Of a stretch of 64,000 nt of DNA, positions 3,160 to 11,306 are shown piece after piece. The notes below the pieces were generated by a model. That model was not told where the DNA came from. It worked only from the letters and a program-made list of their open reading frames with translations, and ran no database searches. Position numbers and translations under genes: made by a program. The stretch comes from Flavipsychrobacter stenotrophus (GTDB lineage: Bacteria; Bacteroidota; Bacteroidia; Chitinophagales; Chitinophagaceae). The DNA lies in contig NZ_PPSL01000001.1 in NCBI RefSeq assembly GCF_002954265.1, forward strand, positions 620,001 through 684,000. Direction: 5' to 3'. Every line of letters starts with the position of its first letter. Within the stretch, counting starts at the first letter, position 1.

Positions 3160-3900
3160 TTTTGGGGTGATTATGGATGGGGGATTTAACATTTCTTGTA
3201 TGTGTGGTGTGGGTGTTTGGTTGTGTTCAGTTGCTGTACCCAACCGCTTACTTACTTTTCTTTGTCCCCGAAGGATCGGGATGTACCAGCTGCCGTCCCG
3301 CAATAAGCGGGATAAACTCCGAAAGAAACAAAGAAAACGGGCATCCCGAAAGCTTTCGGGACGAACTGCTCCGCACGCAAAAGGAGCCAGGCTGCGCATT
3401 GTTGTGGTTGGCCAGACCGCTCTTCGCAAGCTCAGCCAACGCTTCTTGCTCAGCCGCCGTTGTCGTAAATTTTGAGTTAATGCCCGATGGAAATGAAAAT
3501 TTGAATCGGGCATGGGGATGATGTAATGTGTTGTTTTTCATGTGGTTGTGATTTTGTGGTATGCCCGATTGTGCCCGATGGGTGTTTGGTAGTGCTCAGC
3601 TGCTTTGTCCAACCGCTTACTTACTTTTCTTTGTGCTGCCGCAAAGAAAAGTAACAAAAGAAAGCGGGCACTTTTGCGAACTGCTCCGCACGCAAAAGGA
3701 GCCGGGCAGCGTGTTGTTGTGGTTGGCCAGACCGCTCTTCGCAAGTTCAGCCAACGCTTCTTGCTCACCTTCAGTTGTCTTGAAATTTGAGGTAATGCCC
3801 GATGGAAATGAAATTTGAATCGGGCATTGGTTTGGTGTAATGTGTTGTTATTCATTTGGTTGTGGTTTTTGGGGATGCCCGATTGTGCCCGATGGGAGTT
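3160..3900. repeat. Tandem intergenic repeat island, copy 1
   Basis: Two successive units (about 3160-3513 and 3514-3827) plus the start of a third. Each unit ends in a hairpin with perfect 9-bp arms ATGCCCGAT/ATCGGGCAT (3480-3513 and 3795-3827). Each carries a TTACTTTTCTTTG / CAAAGAAAAGTAA inverted segment or remnant and a conserved block containing GGTTGGCCAGACCGCTCTTC. The same unit occurs at 58250-58870. Several 60-130 codon open frames cross it on both strands, but they are repeat-encoded and lack credible starts or family features, so I do not call genes here. Confidence 0.8.
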
Positions 3901-3922
3901 TGGTGGGGATTTGCAATTTGCC

Positions 3923-4446: not shown

Positions 4447-4500
4447 AAATTTGAAAATTGCCAACCGCTATGACGTAGTCGGAAGACTACGCCAAACATG
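4447..4500. repeat. Solitary REP element of the RAYT-associated family
   Basis: Two adjacent hairpins: AATTTGAAAATT next to TGCC, then GACGTAGTCGGAAGACTACG followed by CCAAACATGG. The same paired-hairpin layout and sequence flank the RAYT gene at 23132-23184 and 23774-23829. No transposase gene lies beside this copy. Confidence 0.75.
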
Positions 4501-4949
4501 GAAGCAATTATATTATAGTATAACTAGGTAGTAGGCTGTATTTTATATGTAAGGTATCATAATATTACAACGCGTCGATATGGAAAACTAAACTACATTT
4601 AAAGTGTATTATAATTGCAATATTTGTGCGCGTATTTGACATTTGTTGCTCGCTATTGTTCACTGTTGTATATAAATGTGTTTTTTTGTGACTTTTTGTG
4701 TCACTTTGTATCGCAAAGTTTGAGGAATGATACTTAATATGCTCGTAGTTCCTTTTAATGGCTTTTATAGGGTGTGTGTATTACACACCAAAATTGTTGA
4801 AAAAAAGTGCCTTAAAATGGCAAAATAATATTTGAAAAACAAAACTTTACAGAATATCTACTTATATTTGCTCTAAATGACAAAAGCCCACCGGATGAGG
4901 GCAGGCATTTGAAAAACTTAAGATTAAATCTTGGTTGTTTTTTGCACAA
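4501..4949. other. AT-rich gene-free stretch
   Basis: No gene, RNA or clear repeat is seen in these roughly 450 bases. Base composition is strikingly AT-rich and matches the phage-like islet that follows. If the promoter at 4950-4980 is active, this stretch would be its transcribed region; the longest ATG frame immediately downstream of it is only 11 codons. Confidence 0.4.
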
Positions 4950-4980
4950 CAAAGATACGACAATAAGTCGTATTGCCAAA
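4950..4980 (-). promoter_or_regulatory. Leftward Bacteroidota-type promoter with palindromic operator
   Basis: On the minus strand, TTTG (4977-4980), a spacer of exactly 19 bp, and TATCTTTG (4950-4957) match the Bacteroidota -33/-7 consensus perfectly. The perfect palindrome ATACGAC-N5-GTCGTAT (4955-4973) lies in the spacer and runs into the -7 box, as expected of a repressor site. It lies about 90 bp upstream of the Rha gene but points away from it. Confidence 0.55.
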
Positions 4981-5067
4981 TTTAATCCCACCTTTTTTAC
5001 TGGCTTTCCATTGTCCCTACGGTTCAGTTGTTTATAAATATTAATTTAATAATTAAAATTTTGAACA

Positions 5068-5823
5068 ATGGAATTAGTAATTAATTCAGGTGACAAGGTC
5101 ACAACCACATCAGTTATAGTAGCTGAAAAATTCGGAAAGAGACACGATAATGTCATAGGAGACATTGAAAAACTTGATATGCCAAGAGAATTTACCCTCC
5201 TCAATTTTAAGGAAGGTACTTATTCTACTAAAACAGGCAATCACAAAATGTACATAATGACTAGAGAGGGCTTCATGTCGTTAATGATGTCATTAACTGG
5301 CGCAAAGGCTGCAAAGTTTAGAGCTGATTTTATTAATGCCTTCACTATGATGGAGGAATTAATAAGAAAGCAAATAAAAGATCCATTAAATCATTATAGT
5401 AAAAGGATATTGGATGAGCCAACTAACAATTTGCCAGAAGTGTATTGGTCTGTATTTGACGAGAGCCACAGTGTGATGTTAAAGGTTGAAAAAGCAGTTG
5501 GGGTGTTTAGTCAGTTCGATTTAATAGATGGCAGCATAGGAAAGAGGTGGAAATCCCACCGAACTACTTCATCATTTGGGTTGGCTGAGATTGAGAACCC
5601 ATTCTCACCTAATCCGCCAAAAAAATGTATGCATTCATTTAAAGACAAACGAGGCAACATAGAATGTGCTTGCTACCACAATAGTGAAATTGTGGCGTTC
5701 AAAGGATGGCTAAAAAACACTTACACGAAAGAACATTTACCGAAATACCTGGAGACGAAATATGCTGACAATGTTGCAGTATTAGATAAGGTTAAACAAA
5801 TTTTCCCTAAACTATTAAAATGA
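5068..5823 (+). CDS. Rha family phage regulatory protein
   Basis: A 251-residue protein whose first ~110 residues fit the phage regulator Rha domain: SVIVAEKFGKRHDNVIGDIE near the N-terminus, then YIMTREGFMSLMMSLTGAKA and AAKFRADFINAFTMME. Rha proteins occur in temperate phages and were first described as blocking phage growth in hosts lacking IHF. The C-terminal half (from about residue 120) includes GWLKNTYTKEHLPKYLETKY and is not one I recognise; antirepressor-like proteins often carry such variable tails. Codon use is AT-rich compared with the surrounding chromosomal genes, pointing to acquisition from a phage. Upstream is a leftward promoter with a palindromic operator (4950-4980); downstream is a hairpin at 5855-5876. 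No structural phage genes or integrase are present, so this is a remnant or a small island. Confidence 0.85.
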   Translation: MELVINSGDKVTTTSVIVAEKFGKRHDNVIGDIEKLDMPREFTLLNFKEGTYSTKTGNHKMYIMTREGFMSLMMSLTGAKAAKFRADFINAFTMMEELIRKQIKDPLNHYSKRILDEPTNNLPEVYWSVFDESHSVMLKVEKAVGVFSQFDLIDGSIGKRWKSHRTTSSFGLAEIENPFSPNPPKKCMHSFKDKRGNIECACYHNSEIVAFKGWLKNTYTKEHLPKYLETKYADNVAVLDKVKQIFPKLLK

Positions 5824-5854
5824 TGTTGGTATACCTTAGGAATTATATAAACAA

Positions 5855-5876
5855 GTAGCCACCTTGTGGTGGCTAC
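5855..5876 (+). terminator. Hairpin after the Rha gene
   Basis: Perfect 9-bp stem GTAGCCACC/GGTGGCTAC with loop TTGT, 32 bp after the stop codon. There is no strong T run, so it may be a weak terminator or a processing site. Confidence 0.55.
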
Positions 5877-6021
5877 AGATAATTACTCGGAACTTTTACG
5901 GATGCCAGCTAACTGCGAATTAGCTTGTCAGATTTTAAACTGAATACAGGGTGTAACCTTGTATGCCTCCCATTTTTTGTACAAAACTAAAAACAATTTT
6001 TAAACTTCAAAATTTAACATA

Positions 6022-6162
6022 ATGTCTAAAGATAAAATAATATATATAAAGGCTGACCCGAAAAACCCTTCAAAGCCAGATCCAAAGGAATTGGGTAAAA
6101 TTAAAAAGAAAATGGAAGAAGATTTCATTAAATCTACAAGTAACATTTTCAAAAAAAGATAA
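6022..6162 (+). CDS. Small basic hypothetical protein (46 aa)
   Basis: A 46-codon frame opening MSKDKIIYIKADPKNPSKP and closing NIFKKR, very lysine-rich. It lies 31 bp ahead of the next small gene with the same AT-rich composition, so the two probably share a transcript. I do not recognise the family. Support comes from the clean ATG start after an A-rich leader, the codon pattern and the position within a run of small genes; a chance frame cannot be excluded. Confidence 0.45.
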   Translation: MSKDKIIYIKADPKNPSKPDPKELGKIKKKMEEDFIKSTSNIFKKR

Positions 6163-6192
6163 ATTATTAAACAATTTAAAATCAATATAGAA

Positions 6193-6432
6193 ATGGACGA
6201 TAAAATAAAAGAGTACAAACAATTTTTGCAATCAATTATTGATGAGCATAGCCCATTGCCATCTGGCGGCACGGTGCCCGCTATGCTTGAAAGAGTGACG
6301 GCATTTAAAAAATATATGGAGGATTTTAACGACCGTGGAACTTCAAAGGCAAATTCATTGAAAGCATCAGGCGTTTCTAAGGATGAGTTAATGCAGATAT
6401 CTAATGAGTATTTCCATAAGTTAACTATTTGA
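6193..6432 (+). CDS. Small hypothetical protein (79 aa) of the phage-like islet
   Basis: A 79-residue, probably alpha-helical, charged protein beginning MDDKIKEYKQFLQSIIDEH. No family recognised and no membrane or signal segment. It follows the 46-aa gene by 31 bp and is followed by a terminator-like hairpin at 6462-6489, consistent with the end of a short transcript. AT-rich codon use matches the Rha gene rather than the chromosome around it. An antisense frame of similar length (6000-6470) spans both small genes but has no independent support. Confidence 0.6.
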   Translation: MDDKIKEYKQFLQSIIDEHSPLPSGGTVPAMLERVTAFKKYMEDFNDRGTSKANSLKASGVSKDELMQISNEYFHKLTI

Positions 6433-6461
6433 TTCGTCAGAATGTCATAGACATTAAAAAC

Positions 6462-6490
6462 GAAACCCACATCTTACGGTGCGGGTTTCT
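6462..6490 (+). terminator. Terminator-like hairpin
   Basis: GAAACCC (6462-6468) pairs with GGGTTTC (6483-6489), 30 bp after the 79-aa gene. The T run is short, so strength is uncertain. Confidence 0.55.
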
Positions 6491-6523
6491 TACATTTATG
6501 TTGCGAAACTAAAATGTAATACT

Positions 6524-6703
6524 ATGAGTCAATTTAACTTTGAAAAGACATTAAAAGAAAATGTTGAGAAAGAGATAAGGAATAAAATAAGGAAGGCTTT
6601 CCCGCACATTACAAACTTCTCAGTTAAGTACGACGTAAAGAAACAGAAAGCATCTATTGACGGGCTGACACCTGAGCAGATTGATTTGATAATGAAACCT
6701 TGA
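6524..6703 (+). CDS. Small hypothetical protein (59 aa)
   Basis: A 59-residue protein starting MSQFNFEKTLKENVEKE and ending PEQIDLIMKP. The ATG at 6524 is chosen over an upstream GTG in the same frame because the GTG lies inside the terminator hairpin of the preceding gene. The protein is lysine-rich, with a mixed helix/strand pattern and no recognised family. It ends the AT-rich islet; the following 244 bases hold no gene. Confidence 0.5.
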   Translation: MSQFNFEKTLKENVEKEIRNKIRKAFPHITNFSVKYDVKKQKASIDGLTPEQIDLIMKP

Positions 6704-6947
6704 GTTCAAAGTTATACAAATCACCTACGAAGCACACAATTAACCAACCACCATACAAGTCGTAATTTTTTCCTGTCCAAAATAGGGTAAGCTGAATCTT
6801 TATTTTAATTCTGATCCTTTTCATAATCATAGTTTAGTTGCAGTAGGTTTATATATTCGACGATAGCCAAACCAAACAACGACACTTATCAGCCGATCGT
6901 TCGTATTCCCGACAGAAACATTAAATATCGTACCTTTATAACCAGTT

Positions 6948-7622
6948 ATGGACGAATATATTTCCTTTGAACAGATACCTTTTGGCAGTGATAATTTTGC
7001 TGATAACCCGGAGCCAAGGTGTCCCTGTGTACTCTTATTAGATACTTCTATTTCTATGGGTGGCCGGCCTATTGCCGAGCTGAATGAGGGTGTAAGAACC
7101 TTTAAGCAGGAGTTGATGCAGGACCATCTGGCTACCAAAAGGGTAGAGGTGGCGATCGTTACTTTTGGCCCGGTTACTGTAGAAGCCGATTTTCATACTG
7201 TACCCAATTTCCATCCCCGCGAACTGGACACTACAGGTGATACTCCATTGGGTGCAGCCATTAGCATGGGTGTAGATATGGTGGCCAGGAGGAAGAAGGA
7301 ATACAAAGAGCATGGTATCTCTTACTACAAGCCGTGGATCATACTGATAACTGATGGTGCGCCAACCGATGAATATAAGAAGGCGGCTATGCAGATAAAA
7401 GAGGGCGAGGCGGGTAAATCGTTCGCGTTCTTCGCTATAGGCGTAGAAGGTGCGAATATGGATATATTGAAAGAAATATCTGTGCGTGCCCCAATAAAGC
7501 TAAAGGGACTGATGTTCCGCGAATTTTTCCAATGGTTGTCGGCCTCTATGAAGATGGTGTCGAGCAAGAACCCCGGTAGCCAGGTAAACCTGTTACCACC
7601 AAGCGGCTGGTCTGAATTATGA
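6948..7622 (+). CDS. VWA-domain protein, YegL/TerY-like
   Basis: A 224-residue cytoplasmic protein that is essentially one von Willebrand factor A domain. The metal-ion (MIDAS) motif DTSIS sits at residues 32-36, with the supporting TTGDTPLGAA and LITDGAPTD segments further on. A CPC pair precedes the first strand. It belongs to the TerY/YegL group of bacterial VWA proteins. It overlaps the PP2C gene by 4 bp (ATGA), and a Ser/Thr-type kinase gene follows, reproducing the E. coli YegL (VWA), YegK (PP2C), YegI (kinase) set with very similar protein lengths. By analogy it may be a substrate-binding or scaffold partner of the kinase/phosphatase pair. It has no signal peptide or membrane segment. 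Confidence 0.88.
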   Translation: MDEYISFEQIPFGSDNFADNPEPRCPCVLLLDTSISMGGRPIAELNEGVRTFKQELMQDHLATKRVEVAIVTFGPVTVEADFHTVPNFHPRELDTTGDTPLGAAISMGVDMVARRKKEYKEHGISYYKPWIILITDGAPTDEYKKAAMQIKEGEAGKSFAFFAIGVEGANMDILKEISVRAPIKLKGLMFREFFQWLSASMKMVSSKNPGSQVNLLPPSGWSEL

Positions 7623-8380
7623 GGTGGAAAGCAATAGGGAAGAGCGTAATAGGTACGTCGCACGTAGCAGCAGGTAAGGGGTGTGAAGATGCGTTGCAAT
7701 ATATTGTAGAGAAAGACGCGCATGGCAATGAGGTGCTCATTTGCTGCGTAAGCGATGGTGCGGGTAGCGCGCAATATGCGGGCGAGGCATCGGCTTTTTG
7801 TACGGCGGAGGTGTTGTCATCTTTGTCGGCCTTAGCGACAGCGGGTGCGGCGCTTACAGAAGCGCATATCTACAGTCTGCTGGAAGATATCTATGACGAA
7901 TTGCAGACACAGGCCAATGCCAATGGTGCGGAGATCTATGACTATTCATGTACGCTGCTGGGGTGTTTTATTACCCAGACCCAGTCGGTATTTTTCCAGA
8001 TAGGTGATGGTGCTATTGTGCGTGATGATGCGGGTGGGGCGTATACCTATATATGGTGGCCTCATAATGGTGAATACCAGAATGTGACCGCGTTCCTGGT
8101 TGACGACAGGAATTTCGCCAATCTGAATGTGACGATCATTGATGAACGTATCAATGAGATCGCGTTGTTTACCGATGGTATACAAATGCTGGCGCTCAAT
8201 AATGAGCACAGGCAGGTGCATCAGCCATTTTTCATGAACCTGTTTCAGCATTTGCGTATGGCCGATCATGAGGAGAAGATCAATTTGTTGAACATAAAAT
8301 TGGAGGATTACCTGGGTGGTGATCGCATTAACCTGCGGACGGATGATGATAAGACGCTTTTTTTGGCAACGAGGTTGTAG
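7619..8380 (+). CDS. PP2C-family protein phosphatase, YegK-like
   Basis: A 253-residue metal-dependent Ser/Thr phosphatase. Candidate metal ligands are Asp24 in GCEDAL, Asp46-Gly47 in VSDGAGSA, Asp186 in FTDGIQ and the C-terminal TDDDKTLFLA. The opening MRWKAIGKSVIGTSHVAAG also fits the small stand-alone PP2C group that includes E. coli YegK, which is about the same length. It is translationally coupled to the VWA gene (4-bp overlap) and would remove phosphates placed by the kinase encoded at 9372. No regulatory or membrane domain is present. The gap to the kinase gene is almost 1 kb and consists of repeats, so the kinase may now be expressed separately. Confidence 0.9.
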   Translation: MRWKAIGKSVIGTSHVAAGKGCEDALQYIVEKDAHGNEVLICCVSDGAGSAQYAGEASAFCTAEVLSSLSALATAGAALTEAHIYSLLEDIYDELQTQANANGAEIYDYSCTLLGCFITQTQSVFFQIGDGAIVRDDAGGAYTYIWWPHNGEYQNVTAFLVDDRNFANLNVTIIDERINEIALFTDGIQMLALNNEHRQVHQPFFMNLFQHLRMADHEEKINLLNIKLEDYLGGDRINLRTDDDKTLFLATRL

Positions 8381-8597
8381 GTATTGATCAAGAGCAATGC
8401 AGTTGGTGTTGTTTCATCAGAAGTAGTTTGCTTAATCGGACATGCTATACTTCCGGCATCATTACCTGTCAGGTCATTTTATAGTAGTTATTGATGGCAT
8501 GCGGTCTGGTTGTAATTGGATGCGAACCTACGGCTCGCGGTGATGGAAGGGGGTGGTTGCTACAAACCTTTTGCACCTACGGCGCAATGACATGGAG
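8381..8597. other. Intergenic sequence before the tandem array
   Basis: No gene. It contains short palindromic pieces, such as GCACCTACGGCGCAA at the end, resembling the hairpins of the array that follows. It may be decayed repeat. Confidence 0.35.
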
Positions 8598-9290
8598 TTA
8601 AGGATTTTGTTGGTAGCATATATAGGAGTACGCCCCTACAGGGCTTTGTGATCGGGGTGTTTTCTACGTAGGGCTAACGCCCTACGCTATTGAGTTAGCC
8701 CTTTCAGGGCAATACGATTAGCGTATTAAAATCATTAAATCAATGATTTGACCTAACGGGGCAATGACATGGTGTTAAGGATTTTGTTGGTAGCATATAT
8801 AGGAGTGCGCCCCTACAGGGCTTTGAGATCGGGGTGTTTTCTACGTAGGGCTAACGCCCTACGCTATTGAGTTAGCCCTTTCAGGGCAATACGATTAGCG
8901 TATTAAAATCATTAAATCAATGGTTTGACTTAAAGGGGCAATGACATAGAATTAAGGATTTTGTTGGTAGCATATATAGGAGTGCGCCCCTACAGGGCTT
9001 TGTGATCGGGGTGTTTTCTACGTAGGGCTAACGCCCTACGCTATTGAGTTAGCCCTTTCAGGGCAATACGTTTAGGGTATTAAAATCACTAAATCAATGA
9101 TTTGACCTAACCCGGCAAGGACATGGAGTTAAGGATTTGCTGGTTACTAATAAAGTAGTTCCGCCCCTACAGCGCTTTGTTTTTTGTAAATTGTTTGACC
9201 GAGGGCTTCACCCCTGGCTATTATATTTCGCCCCTTCAGGGCTTGTTTAATGCTTAACTAAATGATACCACGACCTGAAGGTCGTGGCAA
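8598..9290. repeat. 177-bp tandem repeat array between PP2C and kinase genes
   Basis: The phrase TTAAGGATTT recurs at 8598, 8775, 8952 and 9129, giving an exact 177-bp period: three near-identical units and a diverged fourth. Each full unit carries four hairpins: GCCCCTACAGGGC, GTAGGGCTAACGCCCTAC, GCCCTTTCAGGGC, and AATCATT-N5-AATGATT. Although 177 is a multiple of three, every frame contains stops, so it is not protein-coding. The array ends in CTTAACTAAATGA and the palindrome ACGACCTGAAGGTCGT (about 9253-9286), which also forms the arms of the MITE-like element at 23972-24146. Confidence 0.9.
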
Positions 9291-9371
9291 CTATTTCCAG
9301 AATATTTTAAAGCCTAAAAAAGGTATAAGTAAATTTGCTTTTGGGTTTTAATTTTTGACTTTTAAGTTTTA

Positions 9372-11306
9372 ATGATATTCCACGGATCACATAGCGAACA
9401 ATACATAACGGGCAGGGAACTGGGCCGTGGTGGGGAGGGGACTGTGTATGAACTGCAGAATGATGGCAGCCGTGTGTTGAAGCAATACAATGAGCCATTG
9501 TCGCCACTGCAAATACAGAAGTTGCAGACCATGGTGGGTATGCGTAACCCGGCCATAGAGGCTTATGCTGCATGGCCATCGGCACTGGTGGCAGATGATA
9601 AGGGTACGGTTTGCGGCTTCATTATGAAAAAGTTGACGGGATTTGTGCCGCTGCATATGATCTTTAGTCCGCTGGACAGGAAGAAGATGTTTCCCGATAA
9701 GGGGTACAACTTCCTGGTGCATGTAGCCCGCAACCTGGCAACAGCATTTCATAAGCTACATGAAGCAGGGCTGGTAGTAGGTGATGTAAATGAGGGCAAT
9801 ATCCTTATTAATGCCAACGGTCTTGTATCCTTTATAGATTGCGATTCCTTCCAGGTAAAGAACGAAACCGGCTACTTCTTTTGCGAGGTAGGTGTGCCCA
9901 GGTATACGCCACCTGAGTTGCTGGCAAGGCAGAGTTTCGACAATGTGGTACGCACCACCAATACCGACAGCTTTTCACTTGCCATACTTATCTTTCAATT
10001 GTTGTTCCTGGGCAGGCATCCGTTTGCAGGTAGGAATAAATCGGCAATGGATATAGATGAAGAGACGGCCATAAAGCTGCATGAGTTTGCCTATTCGCTT
10101 ACTTCAAGGAAAAAAAAACTGTTTCCACCGTTCGATAGTTTTGATATCAACAATCTGACTCAGCCGCTGATGGACGCATTTCATAAAGCATTTGAGACAG
10201 AAAGCAGACCTGTACCTGCGGAATGGATAAAGGCGCTGGATGGGTTATTAACGGAAATGACTACCTGTAGTGTGTCTAGAATTCACTCCTATCCTGCTAA
10301 AATGGCTGAGTGTCCATGGTGTGCATTCAGGAAGGCAAAAGGGATCATGTATTTTCTGGATGATACCTATCTTCAGGCTGATGCACTGCTGTATGATATT
10401 GAGCAATTTGTCAATGGTTTCCGTATAGACAAGATGGAACTCAAGAACTGGAGCGGTAGTATGTTTGATGCTTCTGTAACAGCCAATAGTATTAGTGCGG
10501 AGTGGCATAAAGAGCGGGCAAAGGCGTTACTTGTTGCTGTGGTTTATGTTATATTATCACTTGTTTGTTTTGTTGTCGTACATCCTCTCTCGATACTTGC
10601 GGGTGGCGCATTACTACTGGCGTGGATGCACAGCGGACCTGTTGCTAAAAAGGTAAAACTGGAAAAACAACGTTTACTCAATAACTATGAACAAATACAC
10701 GGGCAAATGAATAAGCTTATTGCCGCGTATAACGATTCTCCAGATAAAGAATTGTATTTGATAGGTGTAAATAAATTAATGAAAAGTGTGGAGCGGTTTC
10801 GCGCTTTACCGGATGAAGGTGAGCGCCTGCGAAGGGAGATGGAGGAGCTTATATACAATGACAATCTGCAAATGTATCTCCGCCAGTTTGACATCAACAG
10901 CCACGCCATTGCATCGATCGGGCAAACCCGGAAAACTATATTACTTAATGCAGGAATAATGACGGCAGCTGATGTATCTATAAATCTACAGAAATTGGTA
11001 GGGATAGGCCCGAAGACGATTCAGATATTGCTTGACTGGCAAAGACAGATGTCGTTGGGCTTTGTTTATATACCTGATACCGCTAAACTTGCGATGGGAA
11101 TGCAACAGGTAGCCGCAGACGTAGCTACAATGAAAAGAGATCTGGAGCGCACAATAAGGCAAGATTATCAATCACTCAGTTATCATAAACTGAATGTTAC
11201 CAACCGGGCACTTGTGTTGGACCGGCAAATAAAAGATGCCGTAACCCAAAACACACAGGCAAAGCTGGATATGCAATCATTCTCGCGATTCAGCAGGTTT
11301 ATCTAA
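9372..11306 (+). CDS. Membrane-bound Ser/Thr-type protein kinase with C-terminal HhH, YegI-like
   Basis: A 644-residue protein with an N-terminal kinase domain (about 10-300). The glycine loop is GRGGEGTV at 18-25, a candidate ATP-binding lysine is Lys37, the catalytic loop reads GDVNEGN (Asp138, Asn143), and the usual DFG is DCD at 156-158. The His of the canonical HRD is absent, as in atypical kinases of this group. A Cys pair AECPWCAFRKA near residue 315 resembles half a zinc site. Two adjacent membrane segments lie at about 385-425, then a coiled coil, then a helix-hairpin-helix motif VGIGPKTIQIL near 541-551. Size, order and partners match E. coli YegI with YegK and YegL. A TAAATTTG -7-like box at 9330-9337 suggests it may have its own promoter. 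Confidence 0.88.
   Translation: MIFHGSHSEQYITGRELGRGGEGTVYELQNDGSRVLKQYNEPLSPLQIQKLQTMVGMRNPAIEAYAAWPSALVADDKGTVCGFIMKKLTGFVPLHMIFSPLDRKKMFPDKGYNFLVHVARNLATAFHKLHEAGLVVGDVNEGNILINANGLVSFIDCDSFQVKNETGYFFCEVGVPRYTPPELLARQSFDNVVRTTNTDSFSLAILIFQLLFLGRHPFAGRNKSAMDIDEETAIKLHEFAYSLTSRKKKLFPPFDSFDINNLTQPLMDAFHKAFETESRPVPAEWIKALDGLLTEMTTCSVSRIHSYPAKMAECPWCAFRKAKGIMYFLDDTYLQADALLYDIEQFVNGFRIDKMELKNWSGSMFDASVTANSISAEWHKERAKALLVAVVYVILSLVCFVVVHPLSILAGGALLLAWMHSGPVAKKVKLEKQRLLNNYEQIHGQMNKLIAAYNDSPDKELYLIGVNKLMKSVERFRALPDEGERLRREMEELIYNDNLQMYLRQFDINSHAIASIGQTRKTILLNAGIMTAADVSINLQKLVGIGPKTIQILLDWQRQMSLGFVYIPDTAKLAMGMQQVAADVATMKRDLERTIRQDYQSLSYHKLNVTNRALVLDRQIKDAVTQNTQAKLDMQSFSRFSRFI

Follow-up and report, generated by a model that had tools for sequence, protein, structure and literature searches.

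A YegL-PphC-YegI-like triad of VWA protein, PP2C phosphatase and membrane kinase in Flavipsychrobacter stenotrophus: a probable reversible phosphorylation module

YegI is among the few known Ser/Thr kinases of Escherichia coli, and excerpts of PMC8463566 and PMC7535926 call its in vivo function unknown. According to the excerpted text of PMC13232886, the membrane-bound kinase YegI phosphorylates itself on Ser, and PphC (YegK) dephosphorylates it. A wider class, the TerY-P triad, is described in a passage of PMC11090510 as a TerY-like VWA protein, a PP2C phosphatase and a Ser/Thr kinase with a C-terminal zinc ribbon. Here we analyse a VWA/PP2C/kinase triad in a 64,000-nucleotide stretch of Flavipsychrobacter stenotrophus DNA (contig NZ_PPSL01000001.1, positions 620,001 to 684,000; hereafter the window, in whose numbering positions are given). 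It is probably a Bacteroidota member of the YegL-PphC-YegI module and would work as a reversible phosphorylation switch that is tethered to the membrane and has the VWA protein as hub. We read the YegL-PphC-YegI module as a stand-alone branch of the TerY-P class. The triad consists of the following open reading frames (ORFs):

6948..7622, + strand: YegL-type VWA protein, 224 aa (Pfam; 59% identity to YegL)
7619..8380, + strand: PphC/YegK-type PP2C phosphatase, 253 aa (PP2C_2, 7.7e-44; 34% identity to PphC)
9372..11306, + strand: YegI-type membrane kinase, 644 aa (31% identity to YegI over 650 columns)

The first-pass annotation of this DNA had called the three ORFs in this order and with these lengths, and had likened them to YegL, YegK and YegI of about 219, 253 and 648 aa with the same domains. 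Both statements hold. BLASTP gave full-length similarity throughout, with 128/217 identical residues (59%, E 2e-91) for the VWA protein against YegL, 86/251 (34%, E 8e-45) for the PP2C against PphC, and 201/650 (31%, E 3e-97) for the kinase against YegI. The lengths in the window and in K-12 are 224/219, 253/253 and 644/648. Pfam reported VWA (PF00092, 6.8e-11), PP2C_2 (PF13672, 7.7e-44) and Pkinase (PF00069, 1.2e-11) in the respective proteins. The genome carrying the window (5.43 Mb, 21 contigs) has a single match to the window kinase at E <= 0.001.

The gene order in K-12 MG1655 (yegL, pphC, yegI) is that of the window, and the PP2C-kinase junction is interrupted in both. In K-12 it spans 725 bp with yegJ, which runs in the opposite direction; in the window it spans 991 bp, and the interrupting DNA consists of repeats, not yegJ. 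The two kinases have in common the Cys/His residues with their spacing, the helix-hairpin-helix (HhH) region and the hydrophobic stretch. They differ at the canonical Asn, which is N143 in the window kinase and Ser in YegI. The flanking genes also differ, for example the TRCF gene downstream of the window triad. Among 10 E. coli records taken from along the match ranking, yegJ (L002:11186-11647) was carried between pphC and yegI in 4, lacking in 5 and represented by a small match in 1; this distribution does not fit the statement, in the excerpted text of PMC13232886, that yegJ occurs in K strains only.

Similar to the TerY-P class, the window locus has the three protein classes and a Cys-rich stretch right after the kinase domain. 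Its Cys/His residues are invariant, while metal binding and a ribbon fold are putative. It differs from TerY-P by the presence of a hydrophobic hairpin, a coiled coil and an HhH tail in the kinase, by the lack of TerY_C (PF15616, not reported in the window VWA at E <= 1 in the Pfam search), by the lack of TerD in its genome, and by the lack of a shared nuclease or restriction neighbour in the neighbourhoods compared. Its VWA is well separated from the VWAs of one ter plasmid. The triad of Rhodococcus ruber pmega_2 resembles that of the window at 38% for the VWA, 26% for the PP2C and 32% for the kinase over residues 14-321, with the C-H-C-C residues present; as judged by eye, its kinase has a single hydrophobic segment and another C-terminus that lacks HhH. 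In R. ruber (plasmid locus L081:7577-9911) the kinase ORF is unannotated and lies 3' of the VWA and PP2C genes.

Evidence for one module comes from joint retention. Of 296 genomes from the phylum, 5 had matches to the VWA, the PP2C and the kinase, and no other genome matched any of the three (thresholds E <= 1e-20 for VWA and kinase, 1e-10 for PP2C). Of 157 family genomes, 18 had matches to all three proteins at E <= 1e-20 (kinase, VWA) and 1e-15 (PP2C); kinase and PP2C had no further matches, and the VWA had one more, a distant match of 41% in G334, whose genome is 79% complete. Fourteen of the 18 family triads are compact, the window has its 991-bp gap, and three are split. In G375 the VWA gene lies on a different contig from PP2C and kinase; in G299 and G391 it is the kinase gene whose contig differs from that of the linked VWA and PP2C. 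All three split genomes keep the three genes, with one triad-type VWA and PP2C each; G375 has a second, weaker PP2C elsewhere in its genome. On the kinase side of G375 and on both sides of G299, an assembly break is an unlikely cause of the separation, because other genes occupy the positions of the missing ones. Retention of the triad in the split genomes is evidence for joint function that is independent of adjacency.

Outside the phylum, what is said of Pseudomonadota draws on E. coli, plasmids and viral contigs. The kinase matched 47 records of a plasmid collection, of which 8 covered 80% or more of the query; among 40 listed records with a match, at least 3 are chromosome-sized. Nine plasmid regions were examined and VWA, PP2C and kinase were tightly ordered in each, including one with a shortened kinase (L037). 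Among the putatively viral IMG/VR contigs, four carry the triad and one (L072) gave a partial match. We looked for best matches in unrelated VWA, PP2C or kinase clades and for unconserved neighbours, and found neither: the matches are full-length, and the order VWA, PP2C, kinase on one strand is present in 29/32 loci, and in 26 of these no more than 50 bp lie between PP2C and kinase.

The first-pass annotation had proposed trees as a check on co-evolution, and the three trees agree with one another. They were built for 31 triads from Bacteroidota, from Pseudomonadota and Deinococcota plasmids and from E. coli, with L037 left out. At support of at least 95 the three trees had 12, 12 and 11 splits, of which 7 to 9 were shared per pair and none conflicted, and the pairwise distance correlations of the three proteins were 0.95, 0.93 and 0.95. 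Two Bacteroidota genomes (G020 and G157) grouped with a Sphingobium plasmid in all three trees with support 100/100/100, and G252 grouped with a Cupriavidus plasmid with support 99/97/100. The simplest reading of these groupings is at least two transfers of the whole triad from one phylum to another. This reading relies on the stated contamination of 1% for the G020, G157 and G252 assemblies as the check on misassigned contigs. The expected group of the window, L003 (see below), G375, G299 and G391 had support of 76 in the PP2C tree and 87 in the kinase tree, and was not recovered in the VWA tree.

The kinase was divided into regions by an alignment of 32 sequences, which includes the shortened L037 copy from an E. 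coli plasmid, and by an AlphaFold2 (AF2) model with mean predicted local distance difference test (pLDDT) of 76.7 and predicted template modelling score of 0.49:

9405..10256, + strand: kinase domain, aa 12-295, edges approximate (alignment of 32; AF2 model)
10266..10322, + strand: C299-H305-C314-C317, putative zinc knuckle (all four invariant in 32/32 kinases)
10512..10631, + strand: putative membrane anchor formed by a hydrophobic hairpin, about aa 381-420 (hydropathy; AF2 helices)
10638..10880, + strand: long helices or coiled coil, aa 423-503 (AF2 model)
10893..11054, + strand: tandem HhH region, aa 508-561 (alignment, AF2 model, fragment searches)

In the AF2 model the kinase domain resembles kinases such as PknB and BRAF. 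Searches of PDB sequences for solved relatives gave generic matches for the kinase (best 60 of 179), the VWA and the PP2C. K37, D138, D156 and D158 are invariant in 32/32 sequences. The HRD equivalent is (V/I/M/A)-G-D across the family and V-G-D in the window, and the DFG equivalent is D-(C/S/A)-D. In the helix C region Glu is never the common residue, and K50 is invariant. The first-pass annotation had described a missing HRD His and a retained key Asn. The His is indeed missing, and the Arg with it. The Asn claim is right for the window, where N143 lies five residues after D138, and is not valid for the family: N143 is Asn in 21/32 kinases (in 19/19 of own-family kinases plus L003), and the Asn conserved family-wide is N140 (31/32). 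A title cited in the excerpted text of PMC13232886 calls YegI a kinase "lacking conserved motifs", which agrees with the altered HRD, DFG and helix C of the 32 aligned kinases.

The spacing C-x5-H-x8-C-x2-C is the same in the window kinase and YegI, and the H-to-C gap is one residue shorter in 3/32 kinases (L034, L038, L040). The four Cys/His residues had gone unmentioned in the first-pass annotation. We read them as a putative metal-binding zinc knuckle because the ter-plasmid kinase is Cys-rich at this place and TerY-P kinases are described with a zinc ribbon. The membrane assignment of the first-pass annotation is borne out by hydropathy, which gave a hydrophobic segment at 381-419; such a stretch is present in 30/31 members at the cut-off used, L048 excepted. 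In the AF2 model it forms a hairpin of helices 370-398 and 405-421, after which come the long helices, then the HhH region and one last helix.

The HhH tail proposed earlier stands as far as its glycines are concerned, since G517, G544 and G546 are aligned in 30/32, 29/32 and 31/32 kinases. Pfam did not call HhH in the window kinase; an HhH-type model was found in 7/10 scanned relatives, each below cut-off, and was absent in 3. The HhH fragment gave 19 matches to PDB sequences, all at E >= 0.01, which include ComE operon protein 1, DNA helicase II, UvrC, Pol IV and eL32, and also unrelated proteins. In Foldseek the best 50 of 124 matches, none with an E value below 0.44, are a mixture of DNA-binding HhH proteins and SAM domains; polymerases, RAD51 and the C-terminal domain of RNA polymerase alpha are among these 50. 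The nucleic-acid contact suggested by the first-pass annotation is still a hint. One kinase subclade has an extra C4 zinc ribbon of the topoisomerase type C-terminal to the HhH region (Zn_ribbon_Top1, 1.1e-10 in L071 and 8.3e-08 in L032). In the E. coli MS 198-1 plasmid (L037:5914-7596) the YegI relative is shortened, with an open part of 560 aa, and diverges in the HhH region.

The VWA is the most conserved protein of the triad, with a mean column identity of 67% compared to 47% for PP2C and 40% for the kinase. Its D32, S34, S36, T99 and D136 are invariant in 13/13 aligned sequences, and we take them to be the metal ion-dependent adhesion site (MIDAS) known from VWA domains in general. The Asp residues expected to bind metal in the PP2C (D24, D46, D130, D186 and D243) are likewise invariant in 13/13.

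These features suggest the following mechanism. The kinase would be anchored in the inner membrane by the hairpin; as the hairpin is two helices in the AF2 model, the N-terminal catalytic domain and the coiled-coil/HhH tail would both be cytoplasmic. How far the kinase phosphorylates itself may be set by a signal arriving via the tail or the Cys/His knuckle. In the cytoplasm the VWA protein would act as hub: its Mg2+-dependent face would dock to the phosphorylated kinase or to a shared target, and the output would probably be carried by the VWA. The PP2C would reset kinase and VWA. Because we found no dedicated target gene that travels with the module, a conserved host process is the expected point of action.

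Several points weigh against this interpretation. Distant relatives were not counted because the match cut-offs were strict, and strict thresholds miss distant partial sets. Agreement of the trees adds little beyond the cross-phylum groupings, since it is expected for co-inherited neighbours. It is conservation that suggests the VWA as hub, and kinase activity is assumed from invariant residues despite the absence of several canonical motifs. In the Cys/His region (residues 301-320) the AF2 pLDDT is about 61. The module function of the window proteins is itself inferred, from sequence and from the reports on E. coli YegI and PphC.

The triad at the window locus is not one compact operon. The VWA stop and the PP2C start overlap by 4 bp, and the 991 bp before the kinase gene contain the following repeats:

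8570..9180, + strand: 177-bp repeat in 3.5 tandem copies, within the PP2C-kinase gap (Tandem Repeats Finder)
8667..8711, + strand: Acido-Lenti-1-like palindrome, copy 1 (32.9 bits, below the gathering threshold of 37)
8844..8888, + strand: Acido-Lenti-1-like palindrome, copy 2 (also 32.9 bits, subthreshold)
9021..9065, + strand: Acido-Lenti-1-like palindrome, copy 3 (also 32.9 bits, subthreshold)
9199..9243, + strand: Acido-Lenti-1, RF01687 (40.5 bits, above gathering)

The three subthreshold palindromes sit inside the 177-bp units, and the match at 9199-9243 is the sole Rfam match in the window at gathering. A 40-base core of the repeat occurs at 5 further genomic sites with 2-3 mismatches, and the 3-kb loci around 3/5 of these sites have Acido-Lenti-1 matches above gathering. 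The repeat at 8570-9243 looks more like a spreading element of the repetitive extragenic palindromic (REP) kind than a single-locus small RNA. A scan of genome contigs for relatives returned one locus. The closest named relative is L003, a Chitinophagaceae metagenome-assembled genome with identities of 98, 88 and 87% for VWA, PP2C and kinase. Its PP2C-kinase junction is 799 bp with other repeats, and it has no Acido-Lenti-1 match at gathering. The junction thus took up different DNA, as it holds repeats in the window and yegJ in E. coli and is broken in G299 and G391. The ratios of nonsynonymous to synonymous substitution (dN/dS) between the window and L003 are 0.011 for VWA, 0.050 for PP2C and 0.063 for the kinase, compared to 0.013 for the neighbouring TRCF gene. 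Because these values are low, all three genes look maintained.

We examined the neighbouring genes for recurrent partners. In 35 loci, each with a triad or a kinase, ORF picking recovered the VWA in 28 and the PP2C in 30, and in three loci one or both of these two genes are truly elsewhere. No cluster of neighbour ORFs besides the triad occurred in more than 3/35 loci, though small or overlapping genes may be missed, and a hidden fourth gene was rejected on this ground. Some of the 62 nearest proteins from 16 Bacteroidota loci (window, L003, the three split loci and L060 left out) matched PADLOC models, 43 in all and counted by model rather than by protein, among them ShosA, PsyrA, BrxHI and DpdF; none of the best 25 of these models was matched by more than one of the 62 proteins. 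The best 25 of their 102 Pfam families are mostly metabolic or housekeeping. A defence-island context of the Bacteroidota triads was thus not evident from PADLOC and Pfam. In 2/9 plasmid regions, both rhizobial (L036:1278-4377 and L040:9778-12883), hxsA, hxsB and hxsC of the His-Xaa-Ser type adjoin the triad, on either side.

The main rival to a phosphorylation switch with a conserved host target is anti-phage defence of the TerY-P kind, in which infection would shift the kinase/phosphatase balance and trigger protection. It is the main rival because other TerY-P modules do this: in the excerpted text of PMC10889362 a cloned Pseudomonas aeruginosa TerY-P protected PAO1 from Autographiviridae phages, and a passage of PMC11090510 (citing Gao 2020) describes TerY-P-like modules with an OB-fold kinase as stand-alone defences. 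For P. aeruginosa ATCC 27853, a passage of PMC5467263 lists COG4245 and COG4248 genes whose locus tags are near that of a type I restriction gene. The patchy distribution of the triad (5/296 phylum genomes), the 47 plasmid-collection records and 4 viral contigs, and the two cross-phylum groupings would also suit defence. So would an upstream ORF (5068-5823), which has a pRha N-terminus and a C-terminus that matches the phage-defence protein BstA (1.8e-16). However, the E. coli locus is core and chromosomal, with at least 80% of its DNA in 5342/5426 complete genomes (by DNA match, not intact frames), and the Bacteroidota neighbours are ordinary, as described above. PADLOC left the window VWA unmatched, and equally, at 1e-5, four triad proteins of the ter plasmid and three E. 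coli proteins; because these were missed too, its silence is no test. Overall we regard the defence role as rather unlikely. A similarly modest chance is given to the idea that the kinase senses nucleic acid at the inner membrane face, where the HhH tail, lengthened in one subclade by the C4 zinc ribbon, would bind DNA or RNA and switch the kinase on, and VWA and PP2C would make the signal reversible and cell-wide. If this were true, nearly every E. coli strain would carry an unrecognised nucleic-acid surveillance kinase.

The first-pass annotation had linked such triads to Ter-type stress systems, and a metal or tellurite stress response can be argued from the ter cluster of one IncHI2 plasmid. 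This cluster has genes for all three protein classes. Its kinase is Cys-rich at the corresponding position and aligns with the window kinase at E 4e-11, and its VWAs align with the window VWA at 26-31%. But the three ter-plasmid VWAs form their own clade (support 100), and one of them has the TerY_C (3.3e-53) that the window VWA lacks. TerD had no match in the window's genome and was present in 3/18 triad genomes compared to 14/157 family genomes, at positions far from the triad (Fisher p = 0.20). E. coli, though in the control panel, was not among the control genomes with TerD. The test thus found no significant Ter association in this family; the link is not supported, and we consider a Ter function very improbable here. 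Even less credible is a decaying locus, in which invading repeats would have separated the kinase from the rest and this lineage would be losing the module. The repeat-filled gaps of 991 bp in the window and 799 bp in L003 would fit such decay, and so would the split genes of the related G375, G299 and G391 when 14/18 family members are compact. This is opposed by the low dN/dS of all three genes (0.011-0.063) and by the retention of the full set in each split genome.

The reading as a YegL-PphC-YegI phosphorylation module is therefore preferred. The triad type is already known. The present data add that the three genes are retained together even when unlinked, that four Cys/His residues of the kinase are invariant, that the Asn conserved across the family is N140 and not N143, and that a Ter link is not supported. 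That a second phylum keeps the whole set after gene separation suggests one functional unit without reliance on operon adjacency. The analysis marks the VWA as the most constrained part, supplies testable residues (C299/H305/C314/C317, N140 and the HhH glycines), and speaks against treating the YegL-PphC-YegI branch as a Ter system. We found no paper on this triad in Bacteroidota by title, abstract start or passages, in a partial literature coverage that does not contain the original YegI and PphC papers.

Upstream of the triad, window 6700-6960 was aligned with L003, and one block is conserved just 5' of the VWA start:

6868..6947, + strand: conserved upstream block, edges approximate

This block is a possible promoter or leader. 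About 2.4 kb further 5' (window about 4500-6868, edges judged by eye) are missing from L003; the ORF at 5068-5823 with the BstA match lies in this segment. Beside an aminotransferase gene, window 3210-3904 contains direct repeats of 56-140 nt.

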